Below are positions 2,793 through 23,301 of a stretch of 24,633 nucleotides of DNA, piece by piece. The notes beneath the pieces are model-generated. The model saw nothing but the letters and a program-made list of their open reading frames with translations. It did no database searches and was not told the origin of the DNA. The stretch comes from a virus. How positions within the stretch are numbered: the first letter of the stretch is position 1; each line of letters starts with the position of its first letter. The DNA is taken from positions 1 to 24,633 of IMG/VR virus record IMGVR_UViG_3300034356_000216. One strand, written 5' to 3'. The translations under genes and the position numbers were made by a program.

Positions 2793-3152
2793 ATGAGCAA
2801 AGAACATTTAATACCATATAAGCCAGGTGAATCAGGTAACCCAAACGGACGCCCGCGTAAGTATGTTAGCCTACTCAAAGAACAAGGCTACAAACTAAGC
2901 GAAATAAACGACACAATCCAAGTAATGATGTCAATGGATATGGAAGAACTTAATGCAGTTTATAAAAACCCAAAGGCAACAATATTAGAAAAGACTATTG
3001 CAGGTGCTATGAATAAAAGTCTACAAAAAGGTAGCCTGTATTCATTAGATACTTTACTTACCAGAGTATATGGCAAACCTAAAGAACAGATGGATATTAA
3101 AACAGATAATAAAATTGAGGTTATCTTTATAGATGGCAAAACCATTTTATAG
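2793..3152 (+). CDS. terS: Terminase small subunit (DUF5681-like)
   Basis: The 119-residue protein begins with the YKPGESGNPNGRPRKY signature of the DUF5681 family, a basic N-terminal motif found in many phage proteins next to large terminases. It continues with a helical region (residues ~25-100) suited to DNA binding and oligomer formation, and the C-terminal strand KIEVIFIDGKTIL. Small terminases recognise the packaging site and hand the DNA to the large subunit. The ATG at 2793 lies 4 nt after the methyltransferase stop. Its TAG stop shares one base with the GTG start of the large subunit, as expected for proteins made in a fixed ratio. The assignment rests on the N-terminal motif and position, since helical folds of this family are poorly conserved. 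Confidence 0.8.
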   Translation: MSKEHLIPYKPGESGNPNGRPRKYVSLLKEQGYKLSEINDTIQVMMSMDMEELNAVYKNPKATILEKTIAGAMNKSLQKGSLYSLDTLLTRVYGKPKEQMDIKTDNKIEVIFIDGKTIL

Positions 3153-4303
3153 TGCAAATATTTCTACCAAAGCCACACGCAAACCAACAGATAATCTTAG
3201 AGTGCGATAAGCGTTTTAGAGTGGTGATGTGCGGTCGTAGGTTTGGCAAGTCGGAACTATCCCAGATACTTTCAGTTACATACGCAGTTAAAGGGCTTTC
3301 TGTGGCTTATATTACCCCTACTTATGGATTGGCTAAGGTTTTCTTTGCAAAGCTAACCGAGAGCCTAGAACTGCCTAAGAATAAGTCTGACCTTAAAATT
3401 GACTTTCCCAATGGCGGACAGATTGAGTTCTTTACAGGGGAACGATTAGATAATCTTAGAGGTAGAAAGTTTCACTTGGTAATAATAGATGAGGCTTCAT
3501 ATATCCCTGAACTTGAATCAGGATGGCAAAATAGTATTCGCCCAACGCTAACCGATTACAAAGGCAAGGCAATATTCCTTTCAACCCCTAGAGGCAAGAA
3601 CTATTTTTATAGCCTATTTATGAAAGCAGGGGAAAATGATTGGGCTTCCTTTAAGTTTACTAGCTACGACAATCCGCACATAGACCCTATGGAAATAGAC
3701 GATGCTAGGATGCAACTGCCGAACGTAGTATTTGAGCAGGAGTATATGGCAAACCCTAGCGAGAATAGTGCGAACCCATTTGGTAACAAATTTATACAGG
3801 ATTGCGTTAAGACTATCAGCAGCCAACCAATAGTTTGTTTTGGGATTGACCTTGCTAAGTCTGTTGACCATACAGTTATCATAGGGCTTGACAATAGCGG
3901 TAACGTGGCTTATTTTGACCGCTATCAAATGGATTGGCATAACACTAAGGAGAATATAAAGAGGCTACCAAGATGCCCTATATTGATAGATAGCACAGGA
4001 GTAGGCGACCCTATCCTAGAAGATTTAAAAAGGGATGGCATAGCTATTGAAGGCTTAAAGTTTACAAGCTCAAGTAAGCAGCAACTAATGGAGGGTCTTG
4101 CAACCGCCATACAACAGGGCAGGATAGGTTACCCAGAGGGAGCAATAACAAATGAGCTGCAAGTCTTTGAATATCAGTTTACCGCCAATGGGGTTAAGTA
4201 CTCTGCACCTAGTGGTTTCCACGATGACTGTGTTATGGCATTGGCTTTAGCTTGGTCAAACTTTAGTATTAAGAGGGGTAATGGCAGATACTCATTCGTT
4301 TAA
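3152..4303 (+). CDS. terL: Terminase large subunit (packaging ATPase/nuclease)
   Basis: All expected elements are present. There is a Walker A MCGRRFGKS (26-34), Walker B LVIIDEAS (109-116), and a motif III coupling segment FLSTPRG (142-148). An RuvC/RNase H-like nuclease domain from ~225 has acidic residues in FGIDLAKS (D233), ILIDSTGVGD (D280) and GFHDDC (D358/D359). The length, 383 residues, is on the short side but complete. It drives ATP-dependent DNA translocation into the prohead and cuts the concatemer. The start is GTG at 3152, overlapping the small-subunit stop by one base. No in-frame ATG fits better, and MQIFLPKPHANQ matches the normal start of this family. A hairpin terminator follows 34 nt downstream. 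Confidence 0.95.
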   Translation: MQIFLPKPHANQQIILECDKRFRVVMCGRRFGKSELSQILSVTYAVKGLSVAYITPTYGLAKVFFAKLTESLELPKNKSDLKIDFPNGGQIEFFTGERLDNLRGRKFHLVIIDEASYIPELESGWQNSIRPTLTDYKGKAIFLSTPRGKNYFYSLFMKAGENDWASFKFTSYDNPHIDPMEIDDARMQLPNVVFEQEYMANPSENSANPFGNKFIQDCVKTISSQPIVCFGIDLAKSVDHTVIIGLDNSGNVAYFDRYQMDWHNTKENIKRLPRCPILIDSTGVGDPILEDLKRDGIAIEGLKFTSSSKQQLMEGLATAIQQGRIGYPEGAITNELQVFEYQFTANGVKYSAPSGFHDDCVMALALAWSNFSIKRGNGRYSFV

Positions 4304-5094: not shown

Positions 5095-5211
5095 ATGAAA
5101 GAAACATTAGCAATGATTAAGTTCTTCTTTATTTCTGTGCCACTATTTTGTATAGTCTATTTATTTGTCTTATCTTTATGCAAAATCAAGGAACTATGTG
5201 GAATAAAATAA
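5095..5211 (+). CDS. Small membrane protein (38 aa) overlapping the tail chaperone start
   Basis: ATG at 5095 lies one base after the previous stop. The 38 residues begin MKETLAMIK, continue with a hydrophobic helix of about 22 residues (FFFISVPLFCIVYLFVLSL), and end with a basic tail, CKIKELCGIK. Three Cys are present. One transmembrane helix is expected. Its last 16 nt overlap the likely start (5196) of the tail chaperone gene in another frame. The function is unknown. Confidence 0.5.
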   Translation: MKETLAMIKFFFISVPLFCIVYLFVLSLCKIKELCGIK

Positions 5212-5867
5212 CTGTCTGGCAATACCAACAGATTTATACTGCTCTTAATTCTAAAGAGAAGGATGCAACGGACTTAGACCTAGAAGTTAAGCTAGTAGCA
5301 ATAGTCAACAATATGACTGAAATGCAAATAGATAGCCTTCCTTTGAACGAATACAAGGAACTAAACAAGTCTATTAATTTTCTAAACGAGCCGATTCTAG
5401 GCAATCCTAAGAAGCATATAACCATATCTAAGGGCAAGAGGTACAGGATTAACTATGATGTTAGCAAGATGCCATTCGCCAGATACATTGAAAGCAAAGT
5501 ATTTAGTGAGGATTTGTACGGCAACTTACACAAGTTAGCAGCCACAATGGTAATCCCACAAAAAAGAAAGTTTGGCTTTTGGTTTGACCAACCCTACGAT
5601 GCGAGTAGGCATCTGGAGTATTCCAACGATATGCTTGAAGCTAAATTTATAGACGTATATCACTCGTTGGTTTTTTTTTATCAAGTATACAGAAATTGGA
5701 TAGAAGTTTCACAGGACTATTTGGTGAACAAGATGTTAGAAGCAGGGATGAACAAGGACAAAGCGAAAGAGGTGGTTCAAAGTTTATGCATTATTTTGGA
5801 TGGCAATATAGCGCCAAACTTATTGCCGAGTACGAAAATTGCACAGTTACGCAAGGATATGAAATGA
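5196..5867 (+). CDS. Tail assembly chaperone, G-like protein
   Basis: A 223-residue protein starting MWNKITVWQYQQIYTAL; an alternative ATG at 5178 adds MQNQGT. The pattern (KITVWQ..QI, DLDLEVKLVAIV, the region DSLPLNEYKEL, KMPFARYIE, NLHKLAATMV, VYHSLVFFYQVYRNW) matches, in my memory, proteins of Bacteroidota siphophages in the tail-chaperone position, upstream of the tape measure gene. Such proteins coat the tape measure protein while the tail tube assembles. The codons for VFFY contain nine T residues (5671-5679), a perfect T-TTT-TTT slippery site in this frame. Slipping -1 would give a longer G-T product. The last codons overlap the T-like frame. No membrane segment is present. Confidence 0.65.
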   Translation: MWNKITVWQYQQIYTALNSKEKDATDLDLEVKLVAIVNNMTEMQIDSLPLNEYKELNKSINFLNEPILGNPKKHITISKGKRYRINYDVSKMPFARYIESKVFSEDLYGNLHKLAATMVIPQKRKFGFWFDQPYDASRHLEYSNDMLEAKFIDVYHSLVFFYQVYRNWIEVSQDYLVNKMLEAGMNKDKAKEVVQSLCIILDGNIAPNLLPSTKIAQLRKDMK

Positions 5868-5950
5868 GTACAATAGAATGTTTAAATATATTATCTTACT
5901 TAAAAGCAAAGACAGACTTTGACAATGAGCAGATAAAAAAGATTCGTTAG
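5672..5950 (+). CDS. T-like extension of the tail chaperone, reached by a candidate -1 frameshift
   Basis: The -1 frame relative to the chaperone is open from 5645 to the TAG at 5948-5950. The T9 run at 5671-5679 lies near its upstream end, where a slip must occur to enter it. A slip after codon 5676-5678 would make a product of about 251 residues: 161 shared and 90 new. The new part has a hydrophilic linker (RSRDEQGQSERGG), then a protein-like domain, MHYFGWQYSAKLIAEYENC, ending ECLNILSYLKAKTDFDNEQ. Without frameshifting, the frame could start at ATG 5786 (54 aa) or at ATG 5864, which overlaps the chaperone stop as ATGA (28 aa). In lambda-like phages this G/GT pair is conserved and links tube subunits to the tape measure. 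Confidence 0.55.
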   Translation, partial: FFLSSIQKLDRSFTGLFGEQDVRSRDEQGQSERGGSKFMHYFGWQYSAKLIAEYENCTVTQGYEMSTIECLNILSYLKAKTDFDNEQIKKIR

Positions 5951-6038: not shown

Positions 6039-6710
6039 ATGAGCATTAGTCAAGCACAAGCACAGGCAATAGGAGATGGATTCCTTAATAAATTTGGGAA
6101 TGAGGCTTATGGTAGTAAGACAGAATTACCTACTATTGAATACTTATTAGGATTATATGGTGGGGAATTTATAAAAGAAGCTCAAAAAAATCTTAAGCTA
6201 AGTAACTCTATTGCAAGCGGTGATATAAATGATATCATTGCAAGGGTAACTAAATTCGGTACAACCTATACTTTAAGTATGGGTTATCCTAAAAGCGACC
6301 CTGCATCTAAATACTTTGACTTTATAAATAAAGGGGTTAAGGGTACTAAAAATATTAAAGCAGATAATTCTACTCCATATAAATTTAACTCATCTAAAAA
6401 AAGTGTGCCAATTTCTTCAATAGAAAAGTGGCTTAGTTATAACAAACTAAAAACAGTTAGCGTTAAACCTTATAAAAAATTAGGTCAAGAAACAAAGGCA
6501 ATAGATAGTAAAAAATCTTTAGCTTATGTAATAGCTAGTTCTATTCATAGAAAAGGTATAAAGTCAACGCATTACTTTGACAATGCTGAAAAGTATGTTT
6601 TTGATAAATCATTTATAACAGTAATGGAAACAGCATTCGGCAAAGATATTCAAATTTCAGTAAGACAAATAGTTAAAGAAATAACAAATGGCAATAACAA
6701 TCCAAAGTAG
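6039..6710 (+). CDS. Phage structural protein, HK97 gp10-like / tail completion candidate
   Basis: A 223-residue protein, MSISQAQAQAIGDGFLNKFG onward. Residues ~45-120 contain helical KEAQKNLKLSNSIASGDIND, a strand with TLSMGYP, and YFDFINKGVKGTKN. This resembles the 'sheath of helix, then FI..G..G' layout of gp10-type proteins that finish the head-tail joint or tail end. The C-terminal part is basic and includes IASSIHRKGIKSTHYFDNA, a pattern typical of this protein class (RKGI..T.FF..A). It is the first gene after a terminator and overlaps the next gene by 23 nt. A direct role at the head-tail interface is inference from the pattern and position. Confidence 0.5.
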   Translation: MSISQAQAQAIGDGFLNKFGNEAYGSKTELPTIEYLLGLYGGEFIKEAQKNLKLSNSIASGDINDIIARVTKFGTTYTLSMGYPKSDPASKYFDFINKGVKGTKNIKADNSTPYKFNSSKKSVPISSIEKWLSYNKLKTVSVKPYKKLGQETKAIDSKKSLAYVIASSIHRKGIKSTHYFDNAEKYVFDKSFITVMETAFGKDIQISVRQIVKEITNGNNNPK

Positions 6711-7914: not shown

Positions 7915-10016
7915 TGATTAGCACAGAAATATATATTGAAGATTATAAGTTAGATTTGTTGCAAGATATAAGTACAGAGTTTAGTTATAGCATTGATGAC
8001 ATAGTAGATTTTGGATCTAAGAATACTTCTTTTTCTAAGACAATTAATATATCTGGTACTGCTATTAACAATAAAATCTTTGGCTTTGTATTTGACTTAG
8101 GTAATGCTAATCTTACGGACGATGAGCTACCAAATGTTAACTACAATTTCAATGCAAGTAAGTCAGCGCAATGTAGAATATTTATTGATAAGATACAAGT
8201 CTTTAAGGGTACATTAAGAATATTAGAGATAGTAATAGATAATAAGACAATAGAATATCAATGTAGTGTGTTCGGTGAATTAGGTGGGTTTATAACTGCA
8301 TTAGGAAATAAAAGATTGTCAGGTAATGAGATACCTGCCGATGACTTAGACTTTAGTTTTTACGACCATACATATACTTACGAAAATATTACTTCTTCTT
8401 GGGAGGTATCGGGTTCAAGAGGCACAGCTAATAGTAGTGCTTATGGCTCTGGATATTATTACCCATTGATTGATTACGGAAATGTAAGTACAGATAAATT
8501 AGATTATAATGTAATGACATTTAGACCTTCTCTATTTGTTAAAGAATACCTAGAAAAGATAATTGAAGATAGTGGATATACTTATGACTTTGATTTATTA
8601 GATACAGACCCTTTCAAAAGGCTTATAATACCGCACAATCAAAAGATACTTTCAACAATAAGCAATACTCAATTAGTAGCTACTCCAACTGTTGCAACTT
8701 ACACAGGCACAGGTATAACTATCCCTTTAGGATTTACTAACACTTCTTTAGGTAGCTTTACTTATGCAGGAACGACATATATTTATACAGGAGCATCTAA
8801 GGTAATTAACTTAGATTTTAAATTAGTAGGACTTTATACCGCAGGTGGAATAGCTACTCTTAATGTTAAAAAAGCAGGAGTAACTATTGGAAGCTATTAT
8901 ATAGGCGCACCATTTGCAGGTCATTACTTTACTGCTAATATTAATTTAGTAGGAATAACATTTAACACAAGCGATAGTTTAACATTCTCTTTAGATTGGA
9001 CTAGCACTTCAACAGGTTATAATTTAGTTGTTCAATCAGGAGGCTCATTAAATTTAAGTACAACAAGCAGTGATATAGTTCCAATTAACTATAATGAAGC
9101 AATAAAAATAAATAGTACAATTCCTAAAGGAATATTTCAAAGAGATTTCTTTTTAAGTATATGCAAGATGTACAACCTATATGTTTATGATGACATATAC
9201 ACAGATAAAAAGATTTATATAAAACCTTATATAGACTTTTATCCAACTACAAGTGCGAATGCTTTAGATTGGTCTAATAAGATAGACAGGTCTAAGCCAT
9301 TGAGTATAAAGCCAATGAGTGAACTAAATGCAAGATACTACCAATTTAAATACAAAGATGACACGGATAGTTACAATGAGAATTATAAAAAGAAATATAA
9401 TGAGAACTATGGCGATAGGCTATACGATACTGATTATGATTTTAGTAAAAATACGGACACACTTGAAATAATATTTGCATCAAGCCCACTAATTCAAGCA
9501 ACAGGTAGGGATAAACGAGTTACTCAAATATTAAAAATATCTGATAACAATACTAAAGAACAATCGGTAGATAGTGTTATTAGAATTATGCAAGTACAAA
9601 AGTTAAGTGGTGTAGCAACTTGGAATATAAAAAACCAAGCAGGTTTATCTAACTTAGTAACTTTAAATAGCTATGGTTATGCAGGTCATTTACATTTTAA
9701 CGATTCTGGAATACCTGATAATGATATTAATTTTGGTGCGCCTAAAGAGGTTTATATAACTACCACTTCATACCCAACAACAAATTTATTTAACGCATAT
9801 TATAGTAATTATTTAGCAGAGATAACAAGCAAGGATAGTAAGCTATTAACTTGTAGTGCTTTATTAAATACAGTAGATATCAATAATGTAGATTTCTCTA
9901 AATACATTTGGATAGATGGAGTTCTATTTAGGCTAAATAAGATTGAAGGATTTAATCCTATGGAATACAATACAACGAAAATAAGTTTATTAAAAGTAAT
10001 TGAAACAATATACTAA
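7914..10016 (+). CDS. Large tail protein, probable tail tip / baseplate hub component
   Basis: A 700-residue protein in a TAATG overlap (one shared base) with the previous gene, also joined by TAATG to the tape measure gene. The N terminus has TEIYIEDYKLDLLQDISTEF, then TSFSKTINISGTAINNKIFG, a motif I associate with Bacteroidota tail proteins that share a Dit/hub-like start. The middle is Thr/Gly/Ser-rich (residues ~250-400), probably a carbohydrate-binding or jelly-roll-like insertion. The C-terminal part (residues ~410-700) includes YNLYVYDDIYTDKKIYIKPY and NGVLFRLNK-like strands. It would sit at the tail tip below the tape measure. Its length fits a tip protein that trimerises, but this is inference. 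Confidence 0.55.
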   Translation: MISTEIYIEDYKLDLLQDISTEFSYSIDDIVDFGSKNTSFSKTINISGTAINNKIFGFVFDLGNANLTDDELPNVNYNFNASKSAQCRIFIDKIQVFKGTLRILEIVIDNKTIEYQCSVFGELGGFITALGNKRLSGNEIPADDLDFSFYDHTYTYENITSSWEVSGSRGTANSSAYGSGYYYPLIDYGNVSTDKLDYNVMTFRPSLFVKEYLEKIIEDSGYTYDFDLLDTDPFKRLIIPHNQKILSTISNTQLVATPTVATYTGTGITIPLGFTNTSLGSFTYAGTTYIYTGASKVINLDFKLVGLYTAGGIATLNVKKAGVTIGSYYIGAPFAGHYFTANINLVGITFNTSDSLTFSLDWTSTSTGYNLVVQSGGSLNLSTTSSDIVPINYNEAIKINSTIPKGIFQRDFFLSICKMYNLYVYDDIYTDKKIYIKPYIDFYPTTSANALDWSNKIDRSKPLSIKPMSELNARYYQFKYKDDTDSYNENYKKKYNENYGDRLYDTDYDFSKNTDTLEIIFASSPLIQATGRDKRVTQILKISDNNTKEQSVDSVIRIMQVQKLSGVATWNIKNQAGLSNLVTLNSYGYAGHLHFNDSGIPDNDINFGAPKEVYITTTSYPTTNLFNAYYSNYLAEITSKDSKLLTCSALLNTVDINNVDFSKYIWIDGVLFRLNKIEGFNPMEYNTTKISLLKVIETIY

Positions 10017-11932
10017 TGGCAACAGAAAATTTGAATTTAAACGTCAATGTAAACACCAATGGTGTTGACAATTCTATAGGTTCACTTAAAAAGCAACTTC
10101 GTGAAGCAAATGCAGATGTAGTAAGATTATCAGATAAGTTTGGCGCAACGTCAATACAAGCAGCTAATGCAGCAAAAAAAGCAGCAGAGCTTAAAGATAG
10201 GATAGGAGATGCTAAAGCATTAACAGATTCCTTTAATCCAGATGCAAAGTTTAAAGCACTTACTTCTTCATTATCAGGAGTAGCAGGTGGATTTGGTGCA
10301 GTACAGGGTGCTATGGCTTTATTTGGTGCAGAAAGTGATGATGTTCAAAAAACATTATTAAAAGTTCAATCTGCAATGGCTATATCGCAAGGTTTACAAT
10401 CACTTGGTGAAAGTATAGATAGTTTTAAAAACTTAGGTGCAGTAATAAAAAGTACAACAATATTTCAAGAGGCATATAATTTTGTAATAGGAAAAAAAGT
10501 TGTAGTTACTCAAGCAGATATTGCTGTAACACAAGCGCAAACTGCATCAGTAGTTGAGCAAGGAATTGCAATCGTTGGAACTACTGCTATTGTTCAAGGA
10601 GCAACTGGAGCAATAGGAAATAAAGTTGTAGTTGCTGGAACAGATATTATTGCAATAGAAGGTCAAACAGCTGCAACAGTTCAACACGGAGTTGCAGTAG
10701 TAGCAACAACAACTGCTGTAACAGGTGCAACTACAGCAATGAAATTGTTTAGAATAGCTTTAATTGCAACAGGTATTGGATTATTGATTGTAGCAATAGG
10801 ATTTGCTGTTGAGGCATTTTCTAAATATATAGGAGCAGCAGAAAAGGCTGCTGAAGCACAAAAAAAATTAAATAAACAAGTTGAGGATGGCGCAAAAGTT
10901 CAATTAGAAGCTGAACTTGCATTTTTAGATAGAGAACAAAAATTAGCGGTAGCTAGAGCAAAAGCAAAAGGTAATAGCGAAGCGGAGATATATAAAATAG
11001 AACAAACATATAGGCAATTAAAAATAGATTCTCAACAAAGATATCATAATGAAATTGCTAGCATTGATGCAAAAGCTGCTACTGCTACTCAAAATACAAT
11101 AAAAAATATTGTTAACGAAGCAGAAATAGCAAGATTAGCAGAACAAGAAAGATTAAGAAAGATAGCCGAACAAAAAGAAAAAGATGATAAAAAGAAAGCT
11201 GATGAATTAATTGCATTTAATCTAAGAGCAAAGTTACAAGTACAAGGGGATGATTTAGCATTATTAGAAGATGGTAAGAAATTACAAGCGGAGGCAGATA
11301 AAGCTGATGCTGAAGCAGCAAAAGCTGCAGAAGAAGATAGAATAAAAGGTTTGCAATATAGAACCGCACAAGTTCTACAAATTAATAAGACTGCACAAGA
11401 TGAAGATAAGAAAAATAAAGATGCGCTTTTAAATGCAGAATTACAATTTCAAAATGCAAAATTTGATATTGCAAATCAAGGTTTAAACTTAATACAACAA
11501 TTAGCGGGTCAAGGTACTGCGGTAGCTAAAGCTGCAGCGTTATCACAAATTATTATTGATACAGGTAGAGGTTTTGCAAGTGGTTTAACTATTGCACAAG
11601 AAGGTGCAAAGGCAACTGGTCCGGCTGCTCCATTTGCATTCCCAATATTTTATGCAACACAAATCGCTGCCGTATTAGGTGCGGTAGGAAAAGCTAAAAG
11701 TATTTTAAGTCAAGTGCCAGGTGGTGGTGGAATGGGTTCAATTAGTGCGCCATCAATGATTAATCAAGCACCAATAACTCCACAACAACCACAAGCTGCA
11801 ACAACAAACCTAAGTCAACAATCTATTAATGATATAGGCAATCAAGCAGTAAGAGCTTATGTGATTGAAAGTGATGTTACAAGCAACCAACAAAGAATAA
11901 CCGCAATAAGACAAAGAGCAAGATTTAGTTAA
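10016..11932 (+). CDS. Tape measure protein
   Basis: A 638-residue protein, mostly Ala/Lys/Glu-rich helix. Residues ~20-80 contain coiled-coil IGSLKKQLREANADVVRLSD. Residues 80-160 are a hydrophobic Gly/Ala helix. Residues 161-242 hold two copies of a ~40-residue repeat (KVVVTQADIAVTQAQTASVV and KVVVAGTDIIAIEGQTAATV). A membrane-type helix, IALIATGIGLLIVAIGFAV, covers ~247-265, then long coiled coil to ~480, and a Gly/Pro-rich end (GGGGMGSISAPSM). This is the usual composition of tape measure proteins, which set tail length. At ~0.15 nm per residue it predicts a tail near 95 nm. It is short for the family. ATG at 10016 overlaps the previous stop by one base. Confidence 0.85.
   Translation: MATENLNLNVNVNTNGVDNSIGSLKKQLREANADVVRLSDKFGATSIQAANAAKKAAELKDRIGDAKALTDSFNPDAKFKALTSSLSGVAGGFGAVQGAMALFGAESDDVQKTLLKVQSAMAISQGLQSLGESIDSFKNLGAVIKSTTIFQEAYNFVIGKKVVVTQADIAVTQAQTASVVEQGIAIVGTTAIVQGATGAIGNKVVVAGTDIIAIEGQTAATVQHGVAVVATTTAVTGATTAMKLFRIALIATGIGLLIVAIGFAVEAFSKYIGAAEKAAEAQKKLNKQVEDGAKVQLEAELAFLDREQKLAVARAKAKGNSEAEIYKIEQTYRQLKIDSQQRYHNEIASIDAKAATATQNTIKNIVNEAEIARLAEQERLRKIAEQKEKDDKKKADELIAFNLRAKLQVQGDDLALLEDGKKLQAEADKADAEAAKAAEEDRIKGLQYRTAQVLQINKTAQDEDKKNKDALLNAELQFQNAKFDIANQGLNLIQQLAGQGTAVAKAAALSQIIIDTGRGFASGLTIAQEGAKATGPAAPFAFPIFYATQIAAVLGAVGKAKSILSQVPGGGGMGSISAPSMINQAPITPQQPQAATTNLSQQSINDIGNQAVRAYVIESDVTSNQQRITAIRQRARFS
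10496..10741 (+). repeat. Twofold internal repeat in the tape measure gene
   Basis: Residues 161-202 and 203-242 align: KVVVTQADIAVTQAQTASVV with KVVVAGTDIIAIEGQTAATV, then QGIAIVGTTAIVQGATGAIG with HGVAVVATTTAVTGATTAM. A tandem duplication in a tape measure protein would lengthen the tail in whole units. Confidence 0.7.
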
Positions 11933-11952: not shown

Positions 11953-12546
11953 ATGAGTATGGAATTACCTTTATATATGTTAGACATATCGGATGACCTT
12001 AACGACGATGCAGAGGTTCAATATGTCGCTTTGGTAGATAGACCTGCCATTCAAAAGAATTGGAATGCGTTTAAAAATCAGCAGAAGTTTGAAATCATTA
12101 GCGAAGATAAGCATATTATTAGCGGTTGTGCTATGTTGGCTGACACTCCTATTTTTAGAAGTGATGTTAGCTTTGGTGATTATTATGTTGCTTTCTCTAA
12201 AGATACTATTGTCAAGATTGCTCAAAAGTATTTTAAGAAGGGCTATCAAAATAATGTAAACTTAATGCACGACCCTAATCAAATTGAATCAGGTGTTACT
12301 ATGTTTGAAAGTTTTATTAGTGATAAGTCAAGAGGCATAGCACCAATGAAAGGATTTGAAGATGCGCCAGAGGGAAGTTGGTTTGTTTCTATGTTAGTAG
12401 AAAATGAAGCAGTATGGGCTAAAGTTAAAGATGGTACTATTAAAGGATTCTCTATTGAAGGGATATTTAATTATACTCCAAAGCAATCTAAAGATGAAGT
12501 AAAGATGCAACAGATTAAAGACATCTTAAGTTCTATTAAGGCTTAA
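11953..12546 (+). CDS. Prohead protease, XkdF-like (peptidase S78_2 type)
   Basis: A 197-residue protein. It has the N-terminal ELPLYMLDISDD and VALVDRPAIQKNW typical of XkdF-type proteins, a domain with VNLMHDPNQIESGVTMFES (His106), and IKGFSIEGIF (Ser167), which fit the His/Ser pair of this herpes-protease-like fold. These proteases cut scaffold and capsid protein N termini during head maturation. The gene is directly upstream of the scaffold-like and major capsid genes, the standard protease-scaffold-capsid order. Starts at 11953 and 11959 are both possible and differ by two residues. The leader TTACTATTTATG resembles those at other starts here. Confidence 0.85.
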   Translation: MSMELPLYMLDISDDLNDDAEVQYVALVDRPAIQKNWNAFKNQQKFEIISEDKHIISGCAMLADTPIFRSDVSFGDYYVAFSKDTIVKIAQKYFKKGYQNNVNLMHDPNQIESGVTMFESFISDKSRGIAPMKGFEDAPEGSWFVSMLVENEAVWAKVKDGTIKGFSIEGIFNYTPKQSKDEVKMQQIKDILSSIKA

Positions 12547-12589
12547 GTGATAAACAATATTATTTATTAACATTTAAAGAAAAATAAAG

Positions 12590-13195
12590 ATGACCACAAA
12601 AGAGGCGATACAACAAATTAGAGCATTGTTTGAAGATGTTCCACAAGTAGAACCAAAAGAAGCACCAGTTGCTCCTATGGTTGAACCTATTGCACCTGAA
12701 GTTACAAAGGTAGAAATGGCTGAATACTCTTTGGCAGATGGTACAAAGGTTATGATTTCTGCATTAGAAATAGGTGGCAAAGTAGAGTTAGCCGATGGCA
12801 CTCCTGCTCCACAAGGCGAACATCAATTAATGGATGGTACTTCTATCCAAGTTGATGAGTTAGGTATTATCATTGAAATAGCATCTCCTAAAGAAGATGT
12901 TATAGAAGAAGAACCTATCGCACCTGCTGCTCCTGTTGCACCTGCACAAGACACAACTGCTATGGCAGAAATGTTTGCAGCACAAAAAGAAGAATTAGAA
13001 AAAAAGATTGTTGAATTAGAGAACAAAGTAAAGCAAGGTTTTGCACAAGTAGCTGAATTAGTAGAGGCACTTTCAAATACCCCAATGTCTGAGCCTACTC
13101 AAAAATCAGCAAACGCATTTCAATCTTATGTATCTACAAATGATATTAAGTATGAAAGATTAGAGAAATATAGAAACGCAATTTTAAACAAATAA
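12590..13195 (+). CDS. Capsid scaffold-like protein with DGT-repeat beta domain
   Basis: A 201-residue acidic protein lying between protease and capsid, where scaffolds are coded. It has a short N-terminal helix (AIQQIRALFEDVP), a Pro/Ala/Glu linker, then residues ~42-102, a repeated strand-turn unit (YSLADGTKVMI, VELADGTPAPQGEH, QLMDGTSIQV). A second Pro/Ala-rich linker (EEEPIAPAAPVAPAQD) is followed by a coiled coil at ~125-160 (QKEELEKKIVELENKVKQ) and a basic end, KYRNAILNK, that may contact the capsid protein. The coiled coil plus acidic linkers fit scaffolding proteins. The role of the DGT unit is unknown to me. It starts 44 bp after the protease gene and ends 11 bp before the capsid gene. 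Confidence 0.7.
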   Translation: MTTKEAIQQIRALFEDVPQVEPKEAPVAPMVEPIAPEVTKVEMAEYSLADGTKVMISALEIGGKVELADGTPAPQGEHQLMDGTSIQVDELGIIIEIASPKEDVIEEEPIAPAAPVAPAQDTTAMAEMFAAQKEELEKKIVELENKVKQGFAQVAELVEALSNTPMSEPTQKSANAFQSYVSTNDIKYERLEKYRNAILNK

Positions 13196-13206
13196 AATAA
13201 TAAAAA

Positions 13207-14157
13207 ATGTCATTTACAGTCAGTTCATTAACAAACTACACTAAAGAGAACGAAGCACAATTAGTATCTTCTTCTGTTTTAGGTGCAAAAACTGCTGCCC
13301 TTATTAAGAGTGCAGGTAACGTTATGGTTGGAGTTAAATCCGCAGAAACTATCAACATTATGGATACAGATGCTTTCTTCCAAGCAGGTGGAACTTGCGG
13401 TTGGAACGCATCGGGTACAACTACTTTTACTCAAAGAACAGTAACAGTTGGTAAGATTAAAGTACAAGAGGCTTTATGTCCTAAAGCATTAGAAGCAAAG
13501 TATTTACAAAAGGCATTACCAACAGGTAGCCAATACGATTCTATTCCTTTTGAGCAAGATTATAGCGAAAGAAAAGCTAAGACTATTGCATCTCAATTAG
13601 AGACTGCAATTTGGAATGGCGATACTGCTTCAGCTAATGGTAACTTAAACAAGTTTGATGGCTTTGTTAAGTTAATCGGTGCTGCGGCAGGTGTTGTAGA
13701 TGCAAACGTATCTGGATTTATTTCAGGTGCTCCTTTGACATCTATCACTGCTGGTAACGTTGTTAGCTTATTTGATGGTGTTTACAAAGCAATCCCTGCT
13801 AAAGTAGTAGCTGCTGACGATATGGTTATCGTTTGTGGTCAAGATACTTTTAGAACTTACACTATTGCATTGAAGAACGCTAATATGTTCCAATATTCAA
13901 TAGATGTTAAAGCTGATAGCGAGTTTATATTACCAGGCACAAACATTAAAGTTGTAGCTTTACAAGGTTTAAACGGAACTAATGATGTTTATGCAATGCG
14001 TTTAAGCAACTTGTTCTTAGGTACAGATTTATTGAACGAAGAAGAAAAATTTGAAATCTTTTTTGCTAAAGAAGCAGATGAGGTTCGTTTTGCAGCAGAG
14101 TTCAAAATGGGTGTGAACGTAGCTTTCCCTGATGAAATCGTAAAAGTAGCAATTTAA
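13207..14157 (+). CDS. Major capsid protein
   Basis: A 316-residue protein matching the length and texture of HK97-fold capsid proteins. It has an N-terminal arm (MSFTVSSLTNYTKENEAQLV), a stretch with FEQDYSERKAKTIASQLETA that fits the long spine helix, alternating strands and Gly turns, the region NMFQYSIDVKADSEFILPG, and a C-terminal strand, EVRFAAEFKMGVNVAFPDEI. It follows protease and scaffold genes directly and is followed by a strong hairpin terminator, as expected for the most abundant protein. Codons look more regular here than in the neighbours, with many GCT, GTT and AAC, which suits high expression. That impression was not computed. Confidence 0.85.
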   Translation: MSFTVSSLTNYTKENEAQLVSSSVLGAKTAALIKSAGNVMVGVKSAETINIMDTDAFFQAGGTCGWNASGTTTFTQRTVTVGKIKVQEALCPKALEAKYLQKALPTGSQYDSIPFEQDYSERKAKTIASQLETAIWNGDTASANGNLNKFDGFVKLIGAAAGVVDANVSGFISGAPLTSITAGNVVSLFDGVYKAIPAKVVAADDMVIVCGQDTFRTYTIALKNANMFQYSIDVKADSEFILPGTNIKVVALQGLNGTNDVYAMRLSNLFLGTDLLNEEEKFEIFFAKEADEVRFAAEFKMGVNVAFPDEIVKVAI

Positions 14158-14163
14158 TTATAA

Positions 14164-14192
14164 GGGGAGTTGAAATATACTCCCCATTTTTT
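14164..14192 (+). terminator. Rho-independent terminator after the capsid gene
   Basis: GGGGAGT (14164-14170) pairs with ACTCCCC (14179-14185) around an 8-nt loop, followed by ATTTTTT. It starts 7 nt after the capsid stop and probably ends much capsid transcription while letting some pass to the tube gene. Confidence 0.8.
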
Positions 14193-14213
14193 AATAAAAT
14201 AAAATAAACAAAA

Positions 14214-14732
14214 ATGGCGTGTGCATTAACACAGGGATATACCCTAGATTGTCGTGATTCTTTAGGTGGAATTACAGAGGTTTATTTTATTGCAAGTTCA
14301 GATATTACTTCAAGTACTGAAGTTAGTGGTGTAATTACCGCTTTAGTAAAAGCAGCAGGCAAGAAGTTTTACAAATATGAGTTAACAAAAGGAACATCAA
14401 TGTTTACTGAAAACGTAGCATCAAATGTTCAAAATGGTACTTTGTATTTTACTCCTGAATTGACAATAATTTTAAATAAATTACAAGCTAATACAAGAAA
14501 TGAAATCTTATTATTAGCACAAAATAGACTTACTGCCGTTGCTAAAGACAACAATGGTAAGTTCTTTATGCTTGGTAAAACAAGGTCTTTAGACTTAACA
14601 GCAGGTAGTGCTGCAACAGGTACTGCTGAAGGAGATAGAAGCGGATATACTTTAACCTTTGCTGGAGCAGAACCTGCTTTAGCACCAGAGGTTAATAGTA
14701 CAGTAGCTGCTGCCCTAACAACTGCAGGATAG
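14214..14732 (+). CDS. Major tail tube protein (likely)
   Basis: A 172-residue protein beginning MACALTQGYTLDCRDSLGGI, with beta-strands in GITEVYFIASSDI, the region KKFYKYELTKGTSMFTENV, FTPELTIILNKLQANTRNEI, and a C-terminal strand, GYTLTFAGAEPALAPEV, before a low-complexity tail. Size and strand pattern fit tail tube proteins, and ELTKGT..FTE resembles tube proteins of Bacteroidota phages. It is set off by terminators on both sides, as for an abundantly made protein. A decoration (cement) protein of the capsid is the alternative. There is no signal peptide. Confidence 0.6.
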   Translation: MACALTQGYTLDCRDSLGGITEVYFIASSDITSSTEVSGVITALVKAAGKKFYKYELTKGTSMFTENVASNVQNGTLYFTPELTIILNKLQANTRNEILLLAQNRLTAVAKDNNGKFFMLGKTRSLDLTAGSAATGTAEGDRSGYTLTFAGAEPALAPEVNSTVAAALTTAG

Positions 14733-14759
14733 AAGTTTGTAGTTTTTCATAGTTTAGTT

Positions 14760-14795
14760 CCCCTGCCTAGTTCTCTAGGTGGGGGTTTTTATTTT
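14760..14795 (+). terminator. Strong Rho-independent terminator after the tube gene
   Basis: CCCCTGCCTAG (14760-14770) pairs with CTAGGTGGGGG (14775-14785): CCCC/GGGG, two G-U pairs, then CCTAG/CTAGG, around a TTCT loop. TTTTTATTTT follows. This is the clearest terminator in the window. Confidence 0.9.
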
Positions 14796-14959
14796 ATCAA
14801 TCATAAGTGAGCTGATTATCAATCATTATCGGCTTTAATGACACATTATCGTATGAATAAGTGTATCAATGTTACACAATTTGTTATGTTCACGTTTTCG
14901 TGAAAAAGTTAAAAATGTGAACAATTGCAAACATTCATCATTTTACTATTTATTGGTAG
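14794..14959. promoter_or_regulatory. Gene-free region with repeats and hairpins, upstream of the portal operon
   Basis: No gene is seen in 14733-14959 (227 bp). After the terminator, TTATCAATCAT occurs at 14794-14804 and 14816-14826, exactly 22 bp (two helical turns) apart, with a partial copy, TATCAAT, at 14864. GTGTA (14861) pairs with TACAC (14873). TTCAC at 14889-14893 can pair either with GTGAA in 14900-14904 or with 14917-14921. No TAnnTTTG box is seen, though ACTATTTATTGG at 14946 resembles leaders of other genes here. Confidence 0.45.
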
Positions 14960-15334
14960 ATGATACATTTAACAAAAACAGAAACTAATACTATTGTGTT
15001 AACATTAACTGAAAAGCAGTTATTAACAAGCCCTAACTATTTGTTTGTCTTTACTAATAGAAGTACAAATTTAGAGGTTAAGTTTGTTAAGTTATTTGCT
15101 AGTGATACAAGTTTGTACAAGGATAGGTACAATGAATTTAGCATTGTAACAAACACACACTTTGCAAGCCAATTAGAAGGGCAATACACATACGAAATAT
15201 ATGAGCAGGCAAGTACCTCAAACACAAATCCTAGTGGCTTAAACAAGCTAGAAACAGGTATTATGTGGCTTTCAGGAACTACGCTAACATATAACCAATT
15301 TACAACAACAGACACTTATACAATTAGACAATGA
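14960..15334 (+). CDS. Conserved phage hypothetical protein upstream of portal
   Basis: A 124-residue protein starting MIHLTKTETNTIVLTLTEKQ, with regular strands: NYLFVFTNRSTNLEVKFV, then YKDRYNEFSI, GQYTYEIYEQASTSNTNPSG, and GIMWLSG. The strand pattern suggests one immunoglobulin-like or jelly-roll domain. Proteins with this TNTI.LTL...L..P..LF.FTN pattern recur next to portal or connector genes of Bacteroidota phages, as I recall, without a known function. It may be an assembly or decoration protein. Its stop overlaps the portal start by four bases (ATGA), so the two are coupled. Confidence 0.65.
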   Translation: MIHLTKTETNTIVLTLTEKQLLTSPNYLFVFTNRSTNLEVKFVKLFASDTSLYKDRYNEFSIVTNTHFASQLEGQYTYEIYEQASTSNTNPSGLNKLETGIMWLSGTTLTYNQFTTTDTYTIRQ

Positions 15335-17313
15335 TAGATTTAAGAGTACTAACATTCGCAGAAGCCAGACAGCCTGAATTTAAAGAAAAGAAGGGTATTG
15401 ATGGAGGCTACATTAAATATGGCGAGAACAACGATTACCCTGATTATATAGTTGACCTTTATAACAAGTCATCTAAACATAGTGCAATTGTTAAAAGCAA
15501 GGTACATTATATTACAGGTAACGGATGGAGTGGCGAAGCGGATGCCCAAGCATTCATAGACAAAGCTAATAGAGTTGAATCTTTAAACGATTTAACTAGA
15601 AAGGTATCTTTAGACATTGAGATATTTGGCGGTGCTTATTTAGAAGTTATTTGGGATTTATCAGGCAACATTGCAGAGTTATGGCATTGTGATTATACTA
15701 AGATTAGAACTAATAAGGATAATACTCAATATTGGTATAAAGAAGATTGGAAGGATAACAAGGTTAAACCAGATGTTATTCGTGCATTCAATACTAAGCA
15801 GCCAAATGGTAAACAAATTCTTTATGTAAAAGAATACAGACCTAACATTGGTATCTATGGATTGCCTTCATACTTTGCAGCTCTAAATTATATTGAATCA
15901 GATATTGAAGTTTCTAAACATATTTTAGGTAACGCACAGACAGGGTTTTCTGCTAGCAAACTTATTACTTTGCCTAATGGCGAACCTAGTGATGAAGAAA
16001 AGCGTAATGTAGATAATAGATTGCGTAAGACATATAGCGGCGCGGATGGTAAGAAATATATGATTGCTTTTGTCAATGACATATCTAGGAAGCCTGTCGT
16101 AGATGACTTAGGTACAAGTGATTTAACTAAAGAAGATTTCGGTAGAGTAGATTCGTTAATTCAAACTAATATATTTTCAGGGCATCAAGTTACTACCCCA
16201 TCTATTATGGGTATTGCCGAAGCAGGTAAGCTAGGAAGCAGAACCGAGATGCGCGATGGTTACGAGATATTTAAAAACACTTATGTAAACGCAAAACAAA
16301 TGCACCTAGAAAGTGTGTTTAATATGTTAGCTAAATTAAAAGGTGTTATAAGTGAGATTAAGATTATTCCTACCGAGCCTTTAGGAATTGAATTTAGTGA
16401 ACAAACTATTTCTAATATTGCACCTAAAGAATGGATATTAGAAAAATTAGGTATTGATATGACCAAATATGCTCCTGTAAATGATGCTACAATACCTGCC
16501 GAGCAGTTATCTGTAAACGAGCATATCAAAGGATTGAAAGGTCGTGAGTGGCAAAATATGCAGCGTATCATTCGTGAGTTTACAAAGGGCAAGATTAACA
16601 GAGAACAAGCTACTGCAATGCTTAAAACAGGATATGCTTTAAGTGATGACGAGGTTTCTACTTGGTTAGGTTCGGAAGAATTAGATGCTCAATTTGCAGC
16701 ACAAGACTTTGGTGTATTTTTTGAATTTGGTGAGAGTAAAGAATCTTTTAATGTTTGGAAATCTAAAAAGAGATTTAATGATGAGACCGATTTTTATATG
16801 TTTGCAGATGTTACACAACTAGAATCAAATATATTAGACCAAATAGCAAAGCAAAAGAATATTACTCCAGAGGTTTTAGCAGAAATTTTAGATGAAGATG
16901 TTAATAATATAAATAATATTTTAAAAGATTTAGAAGATAGAAAAATATTAAAGGTTAAAGAAACTAAAATAGGAAAAGGTATTAATAGTGATATTGAAAT
17001 ATCTAGAGAACTAACCCAACCATTGAGCAAAGCAGTTGGTGAAACAAAGCCAGAAACAACAGAGATTTTAGTTCGTTATTCTTATGACTGGATATCAGGT
17101 TTTAATGATAGTGATATTAGTACAAGCAGACCTTTTTGCAAAGAATTATTAAGAGCAAATAAGCTATATAGTAGAAGTGAAATTGAAATGATTAGTGCTA
17201 GATTAGGCTACTCGGTTTGGGATAGGAGGGGAGGTTGGTGGAATGATGGTGGCACTATAAGTGAATCTTGTAGGCATCAATGGTTGACAAATATTGTTAC
17301 AAGAAAAAAATAA
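15331..17313 (+). CDS. Portal protein with C-terminal winged-helix and Cys/His domains
   Basis: A 660-residue protein. Residues ~25-450 carry the portal core: YGENNDYPDYIVDLY, NKSSKHSAIVKSKVHYITG, LDIEIFGGAYLEVIWDLSG, and LGSRTEMRDGYEIF, with helices that would form the stem and crown. Residues ~455-490 form a linker. Residues ~493-550 look like a winged helix (ESNILDQIAKQKNITPEVLA, LKDLEDRKILKVKE). Residues ~575-660 hold RPFCKELLRANKLYSR, VWDRRGGWWND and SCRHQW, a Cys/His segment that I know at the C terminus of phage head morphogenesis proteins. The portal forms the DNA entry ring. The fused C-terminal part would replace a separate minor head protein. It starts in an ATGA overlap with the preceding gene. 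Confidence 0.85.
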   Translation: MIDLRVLTFAEARQPEFKEKKGIDGGYIKYGENNDYPDYIVDLYNKSSKHSAIVKSKVHYITGNGWSGEADAQAFIDKANRVESLNDLTRKVSLDIEIFGGAYLEVIWDLSGNIAELWHCDYTKIRTNKDNTQYWYKEDWKDNKVKPDVIRAFNTKQPNGKQILYVKEYRPNIGIYGLPSYFAALNYIESDIEVSKHILGNAQTGFSASKLITLPNGEPSDEEKRNVDNRLRKTYSGADGKKYMIAFVNDISRKPVVDDLGTSDLTKEDFGRVDSLIQTNIFSGHQVTTPSIMGIAEAGKLGSRTEMRDGYEIFKNTYVNAKQMHLESVFNMLAKLKGVISEIKIIPTEPLGIEFSEQTISNIAPKEWILEKLGIDMTKYAPVNDATIPAEQLSVNEHIKGLKGREWQNMQRIIREFTKGKINREQATAMLKTGYALSDDEVSTWLGSEELDAQFAAQDFGVFFEFGESKESFNVWKSKKRFNDETDFYMFADVTQLESNILDQIAKQKNITPEVLAEILDEDVNNINNILKDLEDRKILKVKETKIGKGINSDIEISRELTQPLSKAVGETKPETTEILVRYSYDWISGFNDSDISTSRPFCKELLRANKLYSRSEIEMISARLGYSVWDRRGGWWNDGGTISESCRHQWLTNIVTRKK

Positions 17314-20931: not shown

Positions 20932-21474
20932 ATGGCATATGTATATAGACATATTAGATTAGATAAAAACGAGCCTTTTTATATCGGAATTGGAAGCGAT
21001 GAAAGATATAATAGGTCAAGAGAAAGATATAATAGGAATGGTTTGTGGAAAATTATAGCTGATAAATCTAATATTGAAATTGAAATTTTATTAGATGGGT
21101 TAAATTATAACGATGCACAAGAAAAGGAAAAAGAGTTTATTGCTCTTTATGGAAGAAAAAACAATGGAACTGGTATATTGACAAATTTGACTGATGGTGG
21201 AGAAGGAACTTTAGGAACTGTTATTACCGAAGAAACTAGAAAAAAACTTTCTATTTCAAGAATGGGCAATAAAAGTAAGACAGGACAAAAGCTATCAGAA
21301 GAAACAAAATTGAAGATGTCTTTAGCTAGAAAAGGTGTAAAAAGACCAAAATTGACTGAAGAACATAAGAAAAAGTTATCTTTGGCTAAGATTGGAAAAA
21401 AACAAAGTATAGAAACTATAGAAAAAAGAAATGAATCTAGAAGGTTATTTTATATAAACAAAAAAAACAAATAA
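20932..21474 (+). CDS. GIY-YIG homing endonuclease with NUMOD3 repeats (free-standing)
   Basis: A 180-residue protein. The N-terminal domain carries a GIY-YIG variant: YVYRHIR (3-9), FYIGIGSDERYNRSRERY (15-33), then EKEFIALYGRKN and LTNLTDGGEG, as in phage homing endonucleases. Residues ~100-165 contain three NUMOD3-type DNA-binding repeats, each like SEETKLKMSLARKG, built from a Thr/Glu-Glu helix and a Lys-rich turn, ending in a basic tail, FYINKKNK. It nicks or cuts DNA in a related phage and lets its gene spread. It is not inside an intron; it stands between the fibre and lysis genes, 15 bp after the fibre stop. The gap contains TAAATTTG (20920), which could be a weak promoter of its own. 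Confidence 0.9.
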   Translation: MAYVYRHIRLDKNEPFYIGIGSDERYNRSRERYNRNGLWKIIADKSNIEIEILLDGLNYNDAQEKEKEFIALYGRKNNGTGILTNLTDGGEGTLGTVITEETRKKLSISRMGNKSKTGQKLSEETKLKMSLARKGVKRPKLTEEHKKKLSLAKIGKKQSIETIEKRNESRRLFYINKKNK

Positions 21475-22365: not shown

Positions 22366-22668
22366 ATGGCAACAAGTAAAAAGTTAAATGTTTCAGCTAA
22401 TCCGCTTCCAATAAGTTTTAAAGACTTTAGTAAAAACCCTGTGGTTGGAACTATGTTTTTAGTAATTATTGGAATTTCAGTTTTATATATTGACATAAGA
22501 GGAACGTTTAATAATCAAATTGAAGGGCAAGGTCGCAAGATTGAAAAATTAGAATATCGTGTTGACTTGGTAAGCGATGCGCTGCGTCGTTGTGATTCTT
22601 CATTGGCTTCAGCTACGACTAAACTTTCAACTTTAGAGCAATTAGGTAAGATTCAAAAAATTAAATAA
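22366..22668 (+). CDS. Single-pass membrane protein with coiled coil, i-spanin-like
   Basis: A 100-residue protein. The N-terminal ~25 residues are basic and cytoplasmic (MATSKKLNVSANPLPISF), then one transmembrane helix, VVGTMFLVIIGISVLYI, at ~26-43. A periplasmic coiled coil follows to the end (IEGQGRKIEKLEYRVDLVSD, then SATTKLSTLEQLGKIQKIK) with one Cys at ~75. N-in, C-out topology and a periplasmic coiled coil are the marks of inner-membrane spanins. It starts nine bases after the preceding stop and joins the next gene by TAATG, as spanin pairs often do. The function is inferred from topology and neighbours only. Confidence 0.55.
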   Translation: MATSKKLNVSANPLPISFKDFSKNPVVGTMFLVIIGISVLYIDIRGTFNNQIEGQGRKIEKLEYRVDLVSDALRRCDSSLASATTKLSTLEQLGKIQKIK

Positions 22669-22985
22669 TGAAATATTTATTTATTCTATTCTTATTTGGA
22701 TGTACTGTATCGGCACAAAAAACAAGTGAAGAAGCTGAACAAGAACGTGAGTTTCAACAACTTATGTCAAAAGTAACTGAAACAAATAATAGGTCAGTAC
22801 AGGTTCAGAAAGCAGCAAGTAAAAAGGAAGGCGAATTAGTAACACAAACAATTGCAACAATTGTCTCAATGAAGGGGGAAATTAAAGATTTAAAAATTGA
22901 ATTAAATGAACTTAAAAGCAAGTTGGATTCTGTTAGTATTGATACTGGTGGCAAATTTATGTTATTGCCAATACCCAATTACTAA
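22668..22985 (+). CDS. Exported coiled-coil protein, possible o-spanin lipoprotein
   Basis: A 105-residue protein starting with a signal sequence, MKYLFILFLFGCTVSAQK. The Cys at 12 follows LFG, a poor but possible lipobox; cleavage after CTVSA by signal peptidase I is the alternative. The mature part is charged helix (EEAEQEREFQQLMSKVTETN) with a second helical region, IKDLKIELNELKSKLD, and a short end, LLPIPNY. With the preceding inner-membrane coiled-coil protein it makes a plausible i-spanin/o-spanin pair that would fuse the membranes at lysis. Its ATG shares one base with the upstream TAA. The last 80 nt are also read in another frame as the start of the next gene. Confidence 0.5.
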   Translation: MKYLFILFLFGCTVSAQKTSEEAEQEREFQQLMSKVTETNNRSVQVQKAASKKEGELVTQTIATIVSMKGEIKDLKIELNELKSKLDSVSIDTGGKFMLLPIPNY

Positions 22986-23301
22986 AAAGATAGGCGAAGA
23001 TACAGTTGTTATTATGACTTTAAAACAAGGAGAACAAATTAATAAAACTTTTAATAAATTCAATCAAGATTTAAGTTTAACAAAAGATAGTTTCAATATA
23101 AAGAGAATACAATATGATAGTTTATTCAATACAATTTTTTTGCTCAAAGATTCGTTCTATGATTGGAAATGGAAATACACAGAAAATAAAAGAATATATG
23201 AAGCGTATAATGAAAATCAAAGAAAAATTGAAAAGTTACACGCAGCAAGTAAACTAATTTTAATTGGGATTATCATTTTTCAATTCAGTAAATTACATTA
23301 A
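22906..23301 (+). CDS. Signal peptide plus C-terminal membrane helix protein, u-spanin-like
   Basis: A 131-residue protein. The first 80 nt overlap the preceding gene out of frame and encode a clean signal peptide, MNLKASWILLVLILVANLCY, with two Cys (19, 21). After it come QYPITKKIGEDTVVIM and a long charged helical part with heptads. A short hydrophobic helix near the C terminus (SKLILIGIIIFQF, ~114-126) is followed by KLH. An exported N terminus, possibly lipidated, and a membrane-embedded C terminus is the topology of unimolecular spanins such as phage T1 gp11. The lipobox is not convincing, so outer-membrane anchoring is open. A periplasmic chaperone-like or anti-holin role is also possible. 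Confidence 0.5.
   Translation: MNLKASWILLVLILVANLCYCQYPITKKIGEDTVVIMTLKQGEQINKTFNKFNQDLSLTKDSFNIKRIQYDSLFNTIFLLKDSFYDWKWKYTENKRIYEAYNENQRKIEKLHAASKLILIGIIIFQFSKLH

Follow-up and report, generated by a model that had tools for sequence, protein, structure and literature searches.

Recoding at a run of nine thymidines (T9) in the tail region of a phage genome, the 24,633-base stretch of DNA analysed here (the window), would very probably join two overlapping reading frames, G and T, into a GT fusion, whichever machine slips. The large environmental lineage of tailed phages to which the window belongs has two known ties to Bacteroidota, and it is in our estimate an even question whether this lineage sets its G:GT ratio by polymerase slippage on the invariant T9, not by ribosomal frameshifting. 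If it does, a step that lambda carries out during translation would here take place during transcription. The strict T9 rule makes it possible to test clearly whether transcription can set the ratios of phage tail chaperones. The G/GT principle itself is already known, and is here extended to a family of hundreds of phage contigs, most of them metagenomic, in which the chaperone genes have no strong match to any named family. In the literature searched, which largely excluded subscription papers, no description of the G/T family, of the T9 rule or of a polymerase mechanism for the family was found.

Two reading frames and one slip site

The main frame, G, opens with the ATG at 5196 and closes with the TGA at 5865-5867, encoding 223 aa (5196-5867, + strand, as are the slip site and T). 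It contains the T9 at 5671-5679, read in this frame as GTT (from 5670) TTT TTT TAT (from 5679), in which the heptamer T_TTT_TTT (5672-5678) is in phase as X_XXY_YYZ; no other run of eight or more T occurs in the window. In the -1 frame no stop occurs between 5645 and the TAG at 5948-5950 (full open extent 5645-5950), so that a slip at T9 would yield a 251-aa GT made of 161 G codons and 90 -1-frame codons. This extension, T (5678-5950, 90 aa plus stop, LSSIQKLDRSF...EQIKKIR), overlaps the main-frame tail of G downstream of the slip site (5682-5864). The first-pass annotation had placed T-TTT-TTT of the chaperone frame within 5671-5679, had given the -1 frame the limits 5645-5950 and had predicted products of 223 aa unshifted and about 251 aa shifted, all of which agree with the present reading. 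One start would thus serve two proteins: standard decoding would give G, and at T9 a fraction would shift to the -1 frame and give GT, predicted to consist of G residues 1-161, a flexible linker and a helical T domain.

A conserved run of T

Searching viral contigs at the protein level gave 315 relatives, and the best 80 were read. In the first 80 window-family sequences covering the site (window included), the run is T9 in 79 and T10 in one, in the same phase, the lone T10 having arisen where GTT is changed to TTT; in the intact ones among these 80, the -1 ORF stops 90 or 91 codons further on. Further scans brought the window family to 137 unique sequences (136 T9 and one T10), and in its intact members the -1 ORF stops 89-91 codons after the slip. 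Another scan, independent of the slip site, used the T domain as query (the first T-domain alignment, A7, was too divergent for scanning and a narrower one, A8, was used instead) and found at least 584 relatives. The best 80 of these loci have T9 or T10 at the homologous place, with a G frame open for 163-205 codons upstream and a T frame closed within 45 codons upstream.

A census was then compiled of 452 loci in which the T domain was located by profile, with the -1-frame domain alone as criterion; since each scan of relatives contributes its best 80 loci, rarer variants may sit further down. There were 430 loci with T9, 14 with T10, five cut off upstream and three in which both domains are fused in one ORF, and neither a shorter run nor an interrupted T frame was seen among the 452. 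The two-frame layout with T9 or T10 at the equivalent position is therefore found in 444/452 loci, that is, in 444/444 intact two-frame relatives. The wider family presents 268 distinct sequence contexts (255 T9 and 13 T10), and T9 is also present in all five further loci that a search with one of the fused relatives brought in. When sequences were clustered at a threshold of 50% identity, the spelling NTT TTT TTT was present in 13/13 clusters, for which log10 P is about -10.5 given the amino acids and the codon usage of the family, if clusters are independent. Conservation of the T-run is far beyond chance. The first-pass annotation had proposed to look for conservation of the T frame and the T-run in related phages, and both were found in every intact relative except the three one-frame fusions.

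A homopolymer in a metagenomic contig might be suspected to be a sequencing or assembly error, or else a phase-variable repeat altered by replication slippage. Either is improbable in the extreme, considering that the run has the same length in hundreds of contigs as well as in a cultured phage genome, and that in the T10 cases the frames remain separate (the first T being due to a substitution, or a codon having been added). No contig among the relatives compared has its frames joined by an indel within the run.

Coding constraint and natural fusions

Two overlapping ORFs, the second in the -1 frame, are thus conserved in relatives, as in the G/GT layout, and so is a slippery site within the overlap (444 intact two-frame loci). 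How both frames evolve was measured as diversity over 63 non-redundant sequences. Third-position (wobble) diversity in the main frame drops from 0.574 upstream to 0.249 downstream of the slip, abruptly at the T-run (n=63), and both Phe codons as well as the Tyr and Gln codons that follow have a single spelling each in 63/63. Past the main-frame stop, diversity is 0.287, 0.202 and 0.518 at -1-frame codon positions 1, 2 and 3, a pattern typical of coding sequence in the -1 frame. Conversely, the main frame after the slip stays open for 62 codons, whereas synonymous shuffling of the T codons leaves it open for 9.5 on average (P = 0.004); other clusters likewise keep the main-frame tail open, with the exception of the P12024-like cluster (P = 0.22). 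The wobble drop, the -1 codon pattern and a main-frame tail kept open beyond chance together show that both frames are used.

The three fusions provide a natural no-slip comparison. L455 (236 aa) and L456 and L457 (242 aa) encode both domains in a single ORF that has no T-run, which shows that T continues G. The three make up one group (support 97/93) adjoining the lineage of the window in an unrooted tree, and the direction of change between fused and two-frame forms hinges on where that tree is rooted. The residues at the place equivalent to the slip site are not Val-Phe-Phe in the fused relatives (few sequences, aligned by eye), so it is the run rather than the peptide that looks selected. 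That recoding at T9 joins the G and T frames, as had been proposed from the window alone, is borne out by T9 or T10 in the 444 intact loci, by the -1 coding pattern and by these fusions.

T could instead be translated by reinitiation as a small protein of its own, either at the ATGA at 5864, the alternative raised in the first-pass annotation, or at the ATG at 5786, which would give a protein of 54 aa. The ATGA overlap does exist in the window, and in Nonlabens phage P12024S the corresponding gp39 is annotated in this way, with a TAATG overlap. However, the start at 5864 is CTT, TTA or CTA in most relatives, that of the 54-aa protein is ATT in 14/75, and only 61/179 have a start codon within three codons of the main-frame stop. 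In addition, -1-frame conservation starts at the T-run and some relatives encode the fusion. Reinitiation is rejected because its start codons are not kept, and we consider it very unlikely.

Ribosome or RNA polymerase

Recoding at T9 could be the work of either of two machines. RNA polymerase might slip on T9, giving mixed transcripts with U9, U10 and other runs, of which U10 (one U added) would encode GT, as in Shigella mxiE; this is the explanation to which we incline, by a little. Alternatively, the mRNA would have exactly nine U and a classical -1 programmed ribosomal frameshift would take place on U_UUU_UUU by tandem tRNA slippage, as in lambda G/GT and dnaX, which we regard as a serious possibility, if a somewhat doubtful one. 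To our knowledge, transcriptional slippage is not known for a phage tail chaperone.

The slight lean towards transcriptional slippage is due to a run of nine or more, to a following codon that begins with T and to the failure to find RNA structure. A -1 heptamer requires seven T, yet nine is the shortest run anywhere in the 452-locus census. The codon before the run is GTT, CTT, ATT or TTT, although the T that precedes the heptamer is explicable by a hydrophobic residue at that place. The codon after it is TAT, TAC, TGG, TTG, TGT or TGC; these stand for unlike residues (Tyr, Trp, Cys, Leu) and have the first T alone in common. Ribosomal frameshifting, too, may become more efficient with such a U 3' of the shift codons, Bertrand et al. 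in 2002 having reportedly described an effect of the base at this position. Both Phe codons are always TTT, despite a TTT usage of 0.69 in these genes. The search for a stimulatory RNA structure at the site gave a mean z near 0 and 11 predicted pairs, not one of which shows compensatory changes; this fits polymerase slippage and speaks against a ribosomal shift, even though conserved downstream structure is a common and not an obligatory feature of the latter.

Published work can be brought to bear on both sides. According to Baranov et al. (2005; PMC1088944), when a run of 9A or 9T keeps its length from homolog to homolog, it very likely serves transcriptional slippage, and the family has just such an uninterrupted run of about nine A/T whose length is conserved. 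Efficiencies of 15-30% have been reported for transcriptional slippage in several Shigella genes (PMC4256274). A slipping polymerase is, however, expected to generate other frames as well. In Shigella mxiE (with a U run), Thermus dnaX (A9) and IS elements with A9, two overlapping frames are similarly joined by a run of nine A or T whose length is conserved; slippage in the window, unlike in these systems, is a prediction from sequence comparison. In favour of the ribosome, T_TTT_TTT is correctly phased in every two-frame relative checked, and where G/GT recoding has been described in other long-tailed phages, it is ribosomal (PMC5009743). In E. coli, however, U_UUU_UUU is reported to be much weaker than A_AAA_AAG as a ribosomal shift site (PMC5009743).

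Identity of the proposed chaperone and cultured relatives

That G is a tail assembly chaperone is inferred from the two-frame layout, from its position, with the terminase on one side and tail genes on the other, and from weak profile matches, with most of the weight on layout and position because family profiles match weakly. In the alignment of the G family (A4, 61 rows), 26/61 members have weak matches to Pfam Phage_TAC_7, the family of P2 gpE/E+E'. The best has an E-value of 0.0019, and those examined are all below the curated cut-off and span only residues ~28-64 of G. G and T were folded as separate models, and neither matches a solved structure in the PDB by sequence or by fold (Foldseek). 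Their viral fold matches are unnamed, save for weak matches to chaperones with E above 0.4, and some proteins are matched by both models. In the T model, residues 13-31 are a disordered linker, after which come helices at 33-53 and 65-89.

The terminase large subunit (3152-4303, + strand; phrog_2, E 5e-48, and P12024S annotation) lies upstream of G/T, as it does in P12024S. Downstream, the proposed client, the tape measure protein, is encoded at 10016-11932 (+ strand) and matches phrog_9959, a tape measure family (E 3.9e-4), phrog_21917 (E 5e-20) and P12024S gp49 (E 1e-10), which itself matches phrog_58 tape measure (E 2e-4). G/T is upstream of this gene but not immediately, with genes at 6039, 6688 and 7914 in between.

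By analogy with lambda gpG/gpGT, the tape measure protein (10016-11932) would be chaperoned, and tail tube subunits recruited, by many G and few GT at a set ratio. Both systems have a short protein and a -1 extended fusion made from one tail-region gene, and in both the T frame is closed shortly before the slip site and stays open beyond it. There are differences nonetheless. The heptamer of lambda G/GT is G_GGA_AAG, whereas the site in the window is T9. G of the window has 223 aa, its tail is mostly overlapped by T and its sequence shows no recognisable kinship with any chaperone that has a name or a solved structure; moreover, three genes separate G/T from the tape measure gene and no stimulatory RNA structure was detected.

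No notable homologs were found when window G and T were searched by tblastn against the phage collection, and P12024S was reached via synteny and the fold search, in which the G model matched, among unnamed proteins, I6R9M9 of this phage (E 3.5e-7); Flavobacterium phage 6H gave a weak fold match. In the Nonlabens phages P12024S/L (Inhavirus), G is homologous (gp38, phrog_32199) and has a T9 and a -1-frame T, the terminase is upstream and a tape measure homolog downstream. Unlike in the window, G has 175 aa with a shorter main-frame tail, and gp38/gp39 are annotated as two hypothetical proteins. In P12024S, gp38 is the gene after the terminase and contains CTT TTT TTT TAT, and gp39, in the -1 frame, carries the T domain. 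The annotated, independent gp39 (L239:5664-5831; NC_018271 23663-23830) matches the -1-frame T domain of gp38, and its annotation probably needs correction, as we would suggest for both cultured phages. A scan with the P12024S protein added 63 loci, most at 25-34% identity, and the arrangement recurs in every one of them that covers the site. As for hosts, one relative is in a Chitinophagaceae MAG and one is in phages of Nonlabens/Persicivirga; a prophage search of 395 genomes from the phylum of this MAG matched that MAG alone.

Other features of the contigs

Two contigs have two non-identical G/T copies each, L080 and L083 on IMGVR_UViG_3300002835_000289 (49,966 bases) and L097 and L116 on IMGVR_UViG_3300043436_001856 (63,203 bases). 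The paired copies are ~31-33 kb apart, roughly one genome length, and these contigs are possibly two phage genomes joined in assembly.

The order of modules in the window is unusual in that head genes come after the tape measure gene (11953-17313), with a maturation protease at 11953, a capsid-like protein at 13207 and a portal at 15331. Directly after a large structural gene, the ORF at 20932-21474 resembles, on inspection by eye, a GIY-YIG endonuclease that has repeated DNA-binding motifs, and may encode a homing endonuclease. Finally, the ORFs at 22668-22985 and 22906-23301 overlap by 80 bases in different frames and both have a signal- or lipoprotein-like start, possibly forming a spanin pair.
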